A model generated the notes under the pieces. The model was given only the letters and a program-made list of their open reading frames with translations. It did not search any database and was not told the DNA's origin. A DNA stretch of 39,017 bases, from the NCBI GenBank assembly GCA_029259015.1, contig JAPDJQ010000061.1, positions 1-39,017 of the forward strand. Direction: 5' to 3'. Origin of the DNA: Thermoplasmatota archaeon. GTDB taxonomy: Archaea > Thermoplasmatota > E2 > UBA202 > JdFR-43. Each line of letters begins with the position of its first letter. Position 1 is the stretch's first letter. The position numbers and the translations under genes are program-made. Shown here in pieces: positions 16,601 to 39,017 of this stretch.

Positions 16601-17875
16601 ATGGGAATCATAGAAAAGGCCAGGGAAATAGCAGGCATTATCGAGAGACAGGATGAAATTTGCATCGTCACTCATTGCGATGCAGATGGAATTACTGGGG
16701 CAGCTATAGCTAAAAAAGCACTTGATGAAATTGGAATAAAATGTGAGATAAAAGTTGTCAGATATCTCAGCAGAAAAATTTTGCAAGGCGTAGATAAGTT
16801 TACTTGGTTCATTGATTTGGGCAATGGAAATATCGCAGGTATAAATGGAAATGCTGTAATAACCGATCACCATTTTTCCAATGAATATCATGAAAGAGCT
16901 CTCAATCCTTTTTATTATGGTATAGATGGTGAAACAGAAATATCTGCCGCAGGCTTGGCATATTTGGTTGCATCAAATTTTTCAGATTTTGATGCAACTC
17001 TGGCAATAATGGGAGCCATTGGAGATTTACAAGATTTAAGATTTGGGAGGTTAACTGGCATTAACAGGCAATTATTAAAAAATTCAAAAGTAGAAATTAA
17101 AAAGGATATCAGAATTTATGGAAGAAAAAAGCCTCTTTATAAAATGATTGCATATGCTACCGATCCTGTCATTCCCGGAATTTTTAAAAGGGTAAGAAAT
17201 GCTATTGGCTTTCTAAGCAGAATTGACATTGATTATAAAAAAAGCTGGAATGAGTGCAGCAGGGAAGAGAAAAAGAAGATTTTATCTGAACTGATAAAAA
17301 TTCTGGTAACAAAGGGTTTCAGTTATGATTACATTACAAGAATATTTGGAGAGGTATATGAGCTGGATGGAGAGGATATAAGAGAATATGCAACCCTGTT
17401 GAATTCAATAGGAAAATATGGATACGGAATGGAAGCAATTAAAATGTGCATCGAAGAAAAATTCGATGGAAAAAATCTGCTGAAAAAACATCGCAGCAAG
17501 ATATGCAACTACATAGAATATGCAAAGAAAAAACTGGATGAGTATAAAGGCATATATTACTTCCATGGTGGAAACTACATAATGGATACCGTCGTAGGCA
17601 CTGTTGCAGGCATGATTTTAAGAGAAGAAGACTTTTCCACTCCTCTGCTTGCATTTGCAGAAAATGAGGAAGGCATAAAAGTTTCAGCCCGTGCACCCTA
17701 TAATCTGGTGGAAAAGGGTTTAAATCTATCTATAGCCATGAAAAATGCTGCAGAAATGCTCGGCGGCAATGGGGGCGGGCATAAAGCTGCGGCTGGAGCA
17801 ATTATTCCAAAAGGAATGGAGGAAAGGTTTCTGCAAATTTTTGATGCAGAGATAAGGAATCAGCTTACCCTGTAA
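16601..17875 (+). CDS. DHH/DHHA1 phosphoesterase, archaeal RecJ-like (GAN-type) nuclease
   Basis: 424 aa. DHH motifs appear in order: HCDADG (25-30), IDLGNG (71-76), ITDHHF (87-92) and GAIGDLQD further on. The C-terminal DHHA1 nucleic-acid-binding motif is GGNGGGHKAAAGA. All Mn-binding residues appear intact, so it should be an active exonuclease or nano-RNase. Archaeal relatives act with GINS/MCM or in single-strand DNA or RNA turnover. The start is set by the TATA box 26 nt upstream. The gene overlaps the convergent FKBP gene by 16 nt. A second DHH domain occurs at 37229, there without DHHA1. Confidence 0.88.
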   Translation: MGIIEKAREIAGIIERQDEICIVTHCDADGITGAAIAKKALDEIGIKCEIKVVRYLSRKILQGVDKFTWFIDLGNGNIAGINGNAVITDHHFSNEYHERALNPFYYGIDGETEISAAGLAYLVASNFSDFDATLAIMGAIGDLQDLRFGRLTGINRQLLKNSKVEIKKDIRIYGRKKPLYKMIAYATDPVIPGIFKRVRNAIGFLSRIDIDYKKSWNECSREEKKKILSELIKILVTKGFSYDYITRIFGEVYELDGEDIREYATLLNSIGKYGYGMEAIKMCIEEKFDGKNLLKKHRSKICNYIEYAKKKLDEYKGIYYFHGGNYIMDTVVGTVAGMILREEDFSTPLLAFAENEEGIKVSARAPYNLVEKGLNLSIAMKNAAEMLGGNGGGHKAAAGAIIPKGMEERFLQIFDAEIRNQLTL

Positions 17876-34507: not shown

Positions 34508-37251
34508 GGAGGGTAATTATTATTGCAATAATAATATTTGCACTATCCCTCTTCCCTGTAAAAGCAAAAGAGTATTATTATGAGAGAGTAGAAATAAATT
34601 TGCCTGACGAGATGAAATATCAGCCTGTAGATATTAAAGTTGAATTTGATGAACCATGCTATGCATTAAATGAGAAGAAGCATTCTATAAGAGTATTTTA
34701 CAATGGAAGAGAGATTGAAAGTCAGATATACAATCTCCAGTTTAAAGGCAGCAATATAATAAAATCATGCAATATTGTGTTTCTTTACCAGGGCAAGGGA
34801 GAGTATTTAATAAGATATGGAAAGGAAATGGAGGAAATCAATTATGAAGACCATGTTGAGGTGAAAGATTCATATTATTATACAGAGCCATTGCCCGGAT
34901 ATTTTGCTAAACTCAATTATTACGAGATAAGAGAAAATGGAAAAAGTTTGTTTGGGGTTTGCCAAGAAGGGAGTATACTAGGCATAGAAATGGGAAACAA
35001 AGTTATTAAGATGGAAGAAAATGCAGACAAATTCGAGATGTCAAAATGGAGACAGATATTTTCCTTTGCATTATTTTATTCAGATGGTGAGGAGATAGGA
35101 AGCGATGAAAAGCTTATTGGAAAGAAAATAATTGTGGATGGAAATTTAATGACGAGAGTTGCAATAGAAACTGCATCGAGAGACGGAAAATTAAAGACTA
35201 AAGCAATCTATACATACTACTATTCCCCCACAGATGATAAGAGATTATTTGTTAGTCTGCAGCACGAGGCATATGAGGGCTGGGAAGGAAACGTAACATA
35301 TGCTTATATAATGGCTGTGAAGACAAGAAGTAAAACAATAGAGGAGCTCAATATGGGACAAATTCTACCATATATTCATTTAAACGGAGAAAATGGTATA
35401 GAAGAATATAAACTGGATACAAATCCAGAAAATAAGGAATATAGATGGATAATCTCTGCAAAGAATAATGTTTATCTCGGCAATCCCCCATGGGTGGCAG
35501 TGGATGATAAAAGAAGGGCGTATGTCTTCATCTTTTCTACAGGGAAATTAAAAGTGACAGCCGCCGTCAAGGAGGAAGTGGGGGTGCCCGGCCTAGAAAT
35601 AGATGGAGGAGGCATAAGTATCGGAGAAAACGGCGAAATAAAAGGGGGTAAGCTATATGAGGGGTTGATAGAGGTTTTCTGCGGAAGTTATGAAAATATT
35701 GGCAGAGAGGTAGAGGCATTTTTTGACTTCAAGAATTTCAGGAATTTTGAGGCAGCTGAAGAGGTGGTCGGCCAAGAAAAGAGATATAATTTAACTGTTA
35801 CCCTGCATCTTCGCCATTCAATACCGTTTTTGCCATATATTGCCACATTTTTTGGAATAAAGTTGCCATATATGGAAGTGGAAATATGGAATAATGGAAT
35901 CGTTGCGAAAGGAACTGTAAATTTCAGGAAAATTTCTTTTGAATTGCCCGAAGGAGAATATGTGGTTAGAGTTTATTACAATGGATTTAGGAGCAGGAAA
36001 TATATTGGGGCAAAATATGTGAAGCTGGAAAGTGATTCAAGCATCCATATTTTCTGCTCCTTTGAAGGAATTTTGAATGTGAATACAATTGAAGGAGCTA
36101 AAATAAGAGTTTTGAAAGACGGAGGAATTGTTGCGGAGAATATAAGCAAGGGAAAGGAAATGCTTATCAGGGTTCCAGCCATGCAAAAGTACACTGTTCA
36201 GATTATCTATAATGGCTTTTTGATGGAAGAAGAGGAAATATTTCTTCTCTTCCATTTACGGAAGAGCTATGAATTTAATACATATGATTTTGTGTTGAAA
36301 GTCAGAGATAAGCTGGGAATGGAGCCGGGAGTGAATATTACGTGTTTTATGAGCAGCGAGGAAATGGTAGAGGATATGAAATTATATGGAGAAAAAAGAG
36401 GGGGCATTTATGTATTCAATGGATTGCCAGAAGGAGAATATAAAGTTGTAGCAAGTTATAAAGGCTATAAAGTCGAAAAGAGGATTAGCATACCGCAGGA
36501 TAAAGAAGCAGAGATAATTTTTCCAGCAGAATACAAAGTAAATGTAAAAGCATATGATAAGAGAGGTTTTAGAATAAAGGCAAGGGTGATTTTTGAAAGA
36601 GAGGATAAAGAATTTAAAGAGAATATGCTTCCCCCTGCAGAGTATACCATGAAAATATACGATGGAAGAAAACTTGTTGCAAGTAAAAAAATACTGTTAG
36701 CCAGTGATTCAAACTATGAAATTGTAACGAAAAAATCATCATTTTATCCATACATTATTCCTGTTCTAATACTTGCATTGTTTATTTTGAGGAGGAAAAT
36801 TGAAATATTGTTTGCTTTGTTGCTTTCTTTATCTTTCATATTTTCATGGTGGAATATAAAAGGCGAGTCAACCACTGCCTTATACATGTTTCCTCCAAAA
36901 ATGATTGAACTGAAGGCTACTTACGGTAATATTGTTTCATTGCCTTCTCTGTTGCCGCAAATATTTCTGATAGTCCTGGCATTACTGCTAATTTGCATAA
37001 TTTTTATTTCTCTTTTTCCAATGGACAAATTATTTAAATTTTCCATCATTCCTTTAATGATTTCGTTAATAACATTCATTTACGCCATATCAAAATTTGC
37101 TAATGTTACTGTTGGCAGCGTATTTGGCGAGGGCTTTATTGAAGGAAGTCATGCTGAATGGGGGCTTGGATTAGGCTTTTATTTTGCTTTGCTTTCTTTG
37201 ATTTTGATAACGGGAAAGGTGGTACGCGATGAAATTAGAAGAAGCGGCTAA
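34504..37251 (+). CDS. Large exported membrane protein, 915 aa, unknown function
   Basis: Signal peptide (VIIIAIIIFALSLFPVKA). A long extracytoplasmic, beta-rich, Tyr/Glu-rich region follows (about 22-745), including carboxypeptidase-regulatory/prealbumin-like repeats near 590-740 (the motif LPEGEYKVVASYKGYKVEK is clear; a similar LPEGEYVVRVYYNGFRSRK occurs earlier). About five C-terminal membrane helices follow (about 750-910). I do not recognise the family. Its ATG overlaps the stop of the degenerate CDP-alcohol transferase-like gene, and its own end overlaps the DHH chimera by 23 nt. The layout (ectodomain plus C-terminal membrane bundle) would suit an envelope assembly or surface glycolipid component, which is inference only. 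Confidence 0.7.
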   Translation: MRRVIIIAIIIFALSLFPVKAKEYYYERVEINLPDEMKYQPVDIKVEFDEPCYALNEKKHSIRVFYNGREIESQIYNLQFKGSNIIKSCNIVFLYQGKGEYLIRYGKEMEEINYEDHVEVKDSYYYTEPLPGYFAKLNYYEIRENGKSLFGVCQEGSILGIEMGNKVIKMEENADKFEMSKWRQIFSFALFYSDGEEIGSDEKLIGKKIIVDGNLMTRVAIETASRDGKLKTKAIYTYYYSPTDDKRLFVSLQHEAYEGWEGNVTYAYIMAVKTRSKTIEELNMGQILPYIHLNGENGIEEYKLDTNPENKEYRWIISAKNNVYLGNPPWVAVDDKRRAYVFIFSTGKLKVTAAVKEEVGVPGLEIDGGGISIGENGEIKGGKLYEGLIEVFCGSYENIGREVEAFFDFKNFRNFEAAEEVVGQEKRYNLTVTLHLRHSIPFLPYIATFFGIKLPYMEVEIWNNGIVAKGTVNFRKISFELPEGEYVVRVYYNGFRSRKYIGAKYVKLESDSSIHIFCSFEGILNVNTIEGAKIRVLKDGGIVAENISKGKEMLIRVPAMQKYTVQIIYNGFLMEEEEIFLLFHLRKSYEFNTYDFVLKVRDKLGMEPGVNITCFMSSEEMVEDMKLYGEKRGGIYVFNGLPEGEYKVVASYKGYKVEKRISIPQDKEAEIIFPAEYKVNVKAYDKRGFRIKARVIFEREDKEFKENMLPPAEYTMKIYDGRKLVASKKILLASDSNYEIVTKKSSFYPYIIPVLILALFILRRKIEILFALLLSLSFIFSWWNIKGESTTALYMFPPKMIELKATYGNIVSLPSLLPQIFLIVLALLLICIIFISLFPMDKLFKFSIIPLMISLITFIYAISKFANVTVGSVFGEGFIEGSHAEWGLGLGFYFALLSLILITGKVVRDEIRRSG

Positions 37252-38407
37252 ATATGCAAGCGACTTGCTGCTTAGCCTGCCAAAGAAAACAAAAGTGCGC
37301 ATAATAGGACATGTTGATGCAGATGGCATAGCAGCAGCTTCTATTGTAGCGATGGCGCTCGCAAGAGCAGGATATCGTTTTCATATTTCGATAAAAAAGA
37401 CGGATCCGGATTTAATAAATGAGATTGAAAAGGAAGAGAATGATTTAATTATATTTGTTGATATAGGGAGCGGGTATCTTAACGAAATGGAAAAGTTGAA
37501 ATGCAATGTTATCGTGCTCGATCACCACATTGACAGCAAGGACATACCCTCAAATGTAATGTATGTTAATGCCCGTCTTTATGGCTTAGATGGAAGTAGG
37601 GAAGCATGCGGAGCGAGCGTTGCATATGCTTTTGCAATGGCAGTTGATGAAGAAAATATTGATTTATCACAACTTGCTGTTACAGGAATAATAGGAGATA
37701 AGCAGGATTTTGCTGGATATAATAAAAAGATTGTTGAGGCGGGCATAGGAGCAGGATTTATTGAAGAAAGGGAGGAATATCTTTTTGTTGGAAGAAGTTT
37801 GAAGGAATCGCTGGAAAATTCTCTTGAGCCATATTTTACAGGCTTTCATAATGCAGCATCTTTTTTAGAAGAAATTGGCATAGAGCCACATATGAAATTT
37901 GAGGAACTGGATGAGAAAAAAAGAAAGAAGTTGATGGATGAGTGGGGAATTGATCCTGTGCCGGATGAGCCAACCCCTGAAGGGAAAGGTAGAGGTGCAG
38001 AAAGAGCGTTTTCTGTTAGAAATTATGGATTAAATACTTATGGCGACCTTTTCAACTCCCGTCAGAAGCTTGCACTAATTACATTTACAGAAAAGGTTAG
38101 GCTTGCTTATCAAAAGATGATTGAGGAAGGATACAATGAAGAGTATGCGAAGGCAGTGGTGAGTTATTTGGGGCTGGGCTTAACAAGAATGGTCGATTAT
38201 TATAATTCTCTCTGTCTGTGGGATAATGGACAAGAAAGGACTGTTCATGTTTTCGGAAGACAGGCACTACCGATGGTGTGGGATTATTCAGAACTCAACC
38301 CTCTTTCTAATACTGTAGGTTCATGGGAAAGTATGGCTTTTAGAAGGATATGGAAAGTTATAGAAACCCTCTCCCAAATTCCACCTATTCGGATGGAGGA
38401 GAAATAA
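37229..38407 (+). CDS. Chimeric protein: RecJ-like DHH domain joined to a DUF1156 methylase-like segment
   Basis: 392 aa. Residues 1-about 236 are the DHH half of an archaeal RecJ-like protein: GHVDADG (27-33), FVDIGSG (76-82), LDHH (97-100), GIIGDKQD (153-160), all metal-binding residues intact, but without the DHHA1 domain. Residues about 239-386 read like the middle of DUF1156 'adenine-specific DNA methylase' proteins: PVPDEPTPEGKGRGAERAFS, GDLFNSRQKLALITFTEKVR, SLCLWDNGQE, FGRQALPMVWDYSELNPLSN and LSQIPP. The segment stops just where the family would continue to its catalytic DPPYY. It starts inside the previous gene (23-nt overlap). It could be a real gene fusion by deletion, a decayed locus or an assembly join. 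Confidence 0.75.
   Translation: MKLEEAAKYASDLLLSLPKKTKVRIIGHVDADGIAAASIVAMALARAGYRFHISIKKTDPDLINEIEKEENDLIIFVDIGSGYLNEMEKLKCNVIVLDHHIDSKDIPSNVMYVNARLYGLDGSREACGASVAYAFAMAVDEENIDLSQLAVTGIIGDKQDFAGYNKKIVEAGIGAGFIEEREEYLFVGRSLKESLENSLEPYFTGFHNAASFLEEIGIEPHMKFEELDEKKRKKLMDEWGIDPVPDEPTPEGKGRGAERAFSVRNYGLNTYGDLFNSRQKLALITFTEKVRLAYQKMIEEGYNEEYAKAVVSYLGLGLTRMVDYYNSLCLWDNGQERTVHVFGRQALPMVWDYSELNPLSNTVGSWESMAFRRIWKVIETLSQIPPIRMEEK
38395..38400 (+). promoter_or_regulatory. Shine-Dalgarno for the nucleotidyltransferase gene
   Basis: GGAGGA ends 9 nt before ATG 38410 and lies inside the last codons of the chimeric gene. It selects 38410 over the upstream in-frame ATG 38350. Confidence 0.5.
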
Positions 38408-38409
38408 GA

Positions 38410-38901
38410 ATGAACAGAAATGAAGCAGAAAAGATTCTTGAAATAATGGCATTAGCAGATGGTGGATGTGAATATTGTGTGAGAGAGCTTTATATAAAAT
38501 TTATTGAAAACTTTCCAGAATATACATCTCTTGCAAAGAAAAAATTTACAGAAAAATTTAACAGAGATCTTATAAGTGATAATGAAACTAAGAATTTAAT
38601 AAAAAAAACAATAAAAAAAATTCTGAATCAATTTAATGTTAAACTTGAAAAAATAATTCTTTTTGGTTCTCGTGCAAGAGGTGATTGCAAAAAAGACAGT
38701 GATTGGGATTGTTTTGTAATTGTGAATAGTGATTTGGATAGAGAAGAAAAAAGAAGAATCACTGCTAAGATAAGAATGGAGCTTGCCTGTTTTGGAATAC
38801 CTAATGACATAATTATACAATCTTCTCGTGTTGTTGAAGAAAGAAAGAATGATGTTGGTTATCTGACGTATTATGTTTTAAAAGAAGGCATTGAAATATG
38901 A
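38410..38901 (+). CDS. MNT-type nucleotidyltransferase with N-terminal GGCEYC domain
   Basis: 163 aa. Residues 1-about 50 form a small helical domain (ILEIMALADGGCEYCVRELY) with Cys20 and Cys23 that I have not identified with certainty. The C-terminal part is a minimal nucleotidyltransferase: GSRARGDCKKDSDWD (86-100) fits the MntA motif GS-x10-D-x-D (Gly86, Ser87, Asp98, Asp100). In type VII toxin-antitoxin systems MntA AMPylates and silences a HEPN RNase toxin. The next gene is a HEPN protein with an ATGA overlap (38898-38901), the standard pairing. The first domain is an unusual addition. Confidence 0.85.
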   Translation: MNRNEAEKILEIMALADGGCEYCVRELYIKFIENFPEYTSLAKKKFTEKFNRDLISDNETKNLIKKTIKKILNQFNVKLEKIILFGSRARGDCKKDSDWDCFVIVNSDLDREEKRRITAKIRMELACFGIPNDIIIQSSRVVEERKNDVGYLTYYVLKEGIEI

Positions 38902-39017
38902 ATAAAGATACTGCCAGAAAATGGATTTTAAAGGCAGAAAGTGACCTGAAAATTGCTAAGGATGAACTTACAATGGAAAACCCGGCAACTGATGCCATCT
39001 GCTTTCATGCCCAACAG
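38898..39017 (+). CDS. HEPN-domain protein (HepT-like), 5' part; 3' end outside window
   Basis: Forty codons are visible: MNKDTARKWILKAESDLKIA, then DEL, a short acidic/Pro linker and DAICFHAQQ, where the window ends. This matches the beginning of HEPN proteins that pair with MNT nucleotidyltransferases (W-x2-KAExDLxxA ... D-x-ICFHAQQAAEK). The catalytic R-x4-6-H motif lies beyond the window, so RNase activity cannot be judged. The start overlaps the nucleotidyltransferase stop (ATGA), indicating coupled translation of a toxin-antitoxin-like pair. Confidence 0.85.
   Translation, partial: MNKDTARKWILKAESDLKIAKDELTMENPATDAICFHAQQ

Follow-up and report, generated by a model that had tools for sequence, protein, structure and literature searches.

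An open reading frame of 392 codons at 37229-38407 (+) begins as a RecJ-like DHH nuclease and ends as a piece of a DUF1156 DNA methylase, which raises the question whether such a fusion is a gene of the organism or a product of the assembly. The window, i.e. the whole stretch of DNA analysed here, is one entire contig (C5, 39,017 bp) of a metagenome bin of 134 contigs with an estimated completeness of 86%, and its end is the contig end, a point overlooked in an earlier sequence-only reading of this DNA. The frame is confirmed as open and sits within the final 1.8 kb of C5; from the junction, 1,081 bp remain to the end of the contig. Three explanations had been offered for it, a new compact effector, a deletion scar and a join between two contigs, and these are upheld only in part: the join is favoured, the scar has become less likely and the effector finds no support. 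As argued below from the assembled sequence and its relatives, the fusion frame is very probably not a gene but an assembly chimera, formed where this metagenome contig terminates on its 3' side. The features of this region are as follows.

37229..37936, + strand: 5' part of a genuine archaeal recJ (DHH domain, 236 aa), from profile matches and same-genus relatives
37913..37933, + strand: short word GAGAAAAAAAGAAAGAAGTTG encoding EKKRKKL, the probable joining point, common to RecJ and DUF1156 genes in sequence type and frame
37937..38407, + strand: 156 codons from the interior of a DUF1156/HmaB-type DNA methylase gene (positions ~400-549 of ~970), from profile matches
38386..38411, + strand: second breakpoint region, where the methylase frame stops (MEEK*) in purine-rich GGAGGAGAAATAAGAATG and the intact gene of a class relative (G036) reads QIPLVHIEEDEKISRVTQASATEL
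38410..38901, + strand: MNT-type nucleotidyltransferase (MntA-like antitoxin), from profile matches
38898..39017, + strand: first 40 codons of a HEPN gene with its start confirmed, cut by the contig end at the ENPATDAICFHAQQ stretch

An interrupted recJ-topA locus

Separate profile searches of the two halves, proposed earlier as a check, assign the 5' half to archaeal RecJ and the 3' half to DUF1156. Residues 17-238 correspond to positions 8-246 of the 452 in the NCBIfam model RecJ_archaeal (NF053576; E 3e-56) with a score of 191 bits, well under the 360-bit cut-off for full-length members, and Pfam DHH covers residues 22-153 (E 1.4e-13). The DHH domain carries its catalytic motifs, and the metal motifs previously read in the first ~236 residues are intact. 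Residues 1-236 are 94% identical at the amino acid level to the same-genus orthologues of this nuclease family, from which the frame differs in the absence of the C-terminal, DHHA1-type half: similarity stops at model position 246 of 452, whereas the relatives have ~430 aa. Its absence is due to a switch in the sequence of the contig at 37936. Two genomes of the same genus (G001 and G002) are 93% and 91% identical to the contig at the nucleotide level exactly up to that position, in agreement with the break formerly placed near 37937, and past it both continue into a complete RecJ of about 430 aa with the topoisomerase IA gene topA directly after. Among relatives of the same order, RecJ frames that do not run off a contig measure 427-456 aa and no RecJ frame is fused to a methylase piece, while recJ is followed by topA in 16 of the 19 loci tested, topA being not seen within the stretch examined in the remaining three. 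A search of the bin for the RecJ C-terminus of the fused gene matched only an intact paralogue at 17384-17854. This second, intact RecJ-family gene lies on the same contig at 16640-17854 (+) in a 461-codon open frame and is ~29-35% identical to the RecJ proteins of the relatives.

The lost continuation can be followed on another contig of the bin. The N-terminus of TopA was not found in the bin; TopA residues 470-654 are encoded at 14986-15540 of contig C29 (length 15543) and are 98% identical to those of G002. C29 terminates three bases past this match, inside topA, and is 90.5% identical to G002 at the nucleotide level from its very last base inward, continuing beyond topA like the relatives. 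By the layout of G002, the breakpoint in C5 and the end of C29 are 1,985 bp apart. Since the C-terminal part of topA is present on C29, the organism still has the end of this gene and the bin merely lacks the ~2 kb between C5 and C29. A chimeric contig is recognized by relatives that are intact over the breakpoint and by a missing continuation at the end of another contig, and both are found here. Elsewhere in the bin, contig C30 (G000:C30:1581-2897, - strand) contains a 1061-codon open frame with similarity to topoisomerase IA, possibly a reverse gyrase, which would suggest a thermophile.

The methylase piece and the contig tail

Residues 237-392 match positions 448-536 of the 960 in NF042963 (DUF1156_antiphage; E 1e-4), and positions 403-549 of the 973 in PADLOC HmaB are matched within the whole frame (E 1e-27). 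Over most of its length this piece is 55-69% identical to the middle of full-length DUF1156/HmaB proteins, and it reaches 82% identity over 118 residues with L023. It differs from the full-length proteins in comprising only ~156 of ~900 residues, without the N-terminal DUF1156 domain with the SAM-binding motif I and without DPPYY. As had been noticed from the letters, the frame stops before this catalytic motif, which intact relatives have, and is followed by the MNT gene (38410-38901) and the start of the HEPN gene (38898-39017). Neither the rest of the methylase nor any other DUF1156 piece was found in this genome. Full-length DUF1156 relatives occur in many bacteria and archaea, including an intact protein of 890 aa with DUF1156 and N6_N4_Mtase domains in the class relative G036, and a genome of the same family (G013) carries DUF1156 on a 7,021-bp contig. 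Hma (helicase-methylase-ATPase) is a known candidate defence system that includes the HmaB methylase type (PMC8565338). Unlike in that system, the HmaA helicase and the HmaC ATPase are not beside the HmaB-type piece here: upstream are the housekeeping-type recJ and a gene for a 915-aa protein, and downstream only the MNT gene and the partial HEPN gene.

The purine-rich stretch in which the methylase frame stops resembles the ribosome-binding site of the MNT gene and doubles as its leader. A naturally shortened methylase was considered on account of an N-terminal half of DUF1156 in Thermocrinis (L022) that ends QIPPVEAEE*, and was rejected, as the C-terminal half resumes there after an insert, and G036 and others read through the linker. 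This split gene of Thermocrinis sp. RSWP3 (JAPYWH010000004.1, 278-5055) encodes an N-terminal half of 506 aa with the SAM motif, followed by an insert of four near-identical coiled-coil-like genes of ~140-200 aa each on the opposite strand and then by the C-terminal half with DPPYY; it could be a genuine insertion, an enzyme encoded in two parts or a further assembly effect at that same linker. Another broken DUF1156 fragment with an apparent frameshift lies at a contig edge of the WOR-3 bacterium S146_79 (L033; WGFI01000028.1, 1-507) and ends LITFIEM*. With 86% nucleotide identity over 177 bp, it is the closest match of the tail of the window over that stretch, and it may be a chimeric contig edge as well.

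The MNT gene probably belongs, like the methylase piece, to the foreign tail of the contig. As in MNT-HEPN (type VII) toxin-antitoxin systems, a nucleotidyltransferase with a GSRARG motif is followed by a HEPN start; the HEPN frame here ends at codon 40 with the contig. Relatives of the MNT in the class are all distant, and a comparison with 59 related genomes gave only weak matches of 26-41% identity. The 1,081-bp tail as a whole has no nucleotide match elsewhere in this genome or in other genomes of the genus, and close relatives of its ~470 bp of DUF1156 together with MNT and HEPN are lacking from both genus and family. Across 390 genomes searched in the phylum, short pieces of it match in five other genomes, none of them near-identically. 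No relative of the methylase piece or of the MNT was found in viral contigs, no relative of the MNT on plasmids, and no repeats of note in the tail; in Sulfolobus virus STSV1, the methylase piece has a match of 25%. The composition of the tail is not clearly foreign (G+C 35.4% vs 36.4%, with 8% of same-length segments fitting the model of the contig worse); being within the range of the contig, it is compatible with either origin.

The shared word at the join

The join coincides with a stretch that the two unrelated genes have in common. RecJ relatives read DE(K/E)KRKKLLSA at the break, and DUF1156 relatives have LE(K/E)KR-KLMDEWGIDPVPD just ahead of the piece, so that the breakpoint falls on a sequence, E(K/E)KR-K-L, that is rich in Lys, Arg and Glu and is encoded by both families in one and the same frame. 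Similarity to DUF1156 genes begins upstream of the break, with the WOR-3 fragment being 86% identical at the nucleotide level from 37917 onwards, which gives an overlap of ~20 bp with the RecJ similarity. Just before the break, another DUF1156 gene (L026) shares 18 of 21 nucleotides with the window, as compared with at most 13 at other in-phase RecJ positions. An in-phase shared word of ~21 nt accounts for the join as well as for the frame staying open; since the donor DUF1156 gene was not found, the exact length of this word is deduced from relatives, the closest of which shares 18/21.

A chimeric assembly would thus arise as follows. The real gene would be a standard archaeal recJ with its C-terminal half in place and topA behind it. 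On its way through recJ, the assembler would have met the purine-rich word of ~21 nt, which a DUF1156 methylase gene at some other locus or in another organism of the sample also contains in this codon phase, followed the donor path for ~1.08 kb and then stopped. The true continuation of ~2 kb, made up of the 3' part of recJ and the 5' part of topA, would have been lost from the bin, to resume at the end of C29. Metagenome assemblies are known to contain, albeit rarely, scaffolds that combine two organisms as well as local assembly errors (PMC7111523). The present case has the marks of a chimeric metagenomic contig, namely an abrupt loss of synteny near the contig end at a short stretch common to two genes, here read from the assembled sequence.

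Assembly or recombination

A chimera is the most likely origin of the fusion because close relatives have an intact RecJ-topoisomerase locus and the lost end of the topoisomerase lies at the edge of another contig; we infer that the assembler, and not the cell, created the join and that the tail has its origin elsewhere. It had been anticipated that relatives with full-length, unfused genes would speak for an artefact or a private scar, and such relatives do exist, with full-length RecJ and, elsewhere, full-length DUF1156 proteins. A genuine scar, in which recombination at the shared sequence for EKKRKKL linked recJ with part of a defence island (the DUF1156 piece with MNT-HEPN) in the strain or in part of the population, would have removed the 3' half of recJ and the 5' part of topA and left the frame as a pseudogene-like fragment. 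Short shared sequences are recombination substrates in cells too, the tail is bordered by purine-rich sequence at both of its breakpoints, and the unremarkable composition of the tail and the absence from the bin of the missing parts of recJ and topA agree with such an event. However, it would cost the organism both recJ and topA, genes that stay together in every relative in which the two are visible, and the bare edge of C29 lies inside topA without any trace of an insert, which is what an assembly gap would produce. Also typical of a graph artefact are the nearness of the contig end, 1.08 kb past the join, and the presence of two breakpoints in the space of 470 bp. A scar is less likely because half of recJ and ~70% of topA would have been removed, yet the C-terminal part of topA remains on a contig that ends inside this gene; on balance, a recombination scar is considered improbable, though not negligibly so. 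That a real in-frame exchange between RecJ and DUF1156 made a new short protein beside the MNT-HEPN pair in one strain carries only a very small probability.

The proposal of a functional compact effector, in which a DHH nuclease domain and a methylase-derived recognition part act with the MNT-HEPN pair, draws on the frame being open across the join and on the intact DHH motifs. The open frame is, however, accounted for by the in-phase similarity at the join, and neither half has its catalytic or structural partner, with motif I and DPPYY wanting in the methylase piece and the C-terminal half in the RecJ piece. The suggested search for other genomes with the same junction, using the fused protein as a query, returned no second example among 59 relatives (0/59), the tail does not recur in the 390 genomes of the phylum, and it constitutes a 1-kb contig end. 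Hence, a new effector appears very unlikely, with very little weight among the readings. The fusion frame, taken as a chimera, shows cleanly that a few in-phase nucleotides common to two unrelated genes, here encoding a Lys/Arg/Glu-rich helix, can generate in a metagenome bin a plausible full-length fusion ORF of the kind that enters protein databases as a novel domain architecture, and comparison with relatives, combined with screening the ends of other contigs for the lost continuation, provides a test for such cases that works without reads.
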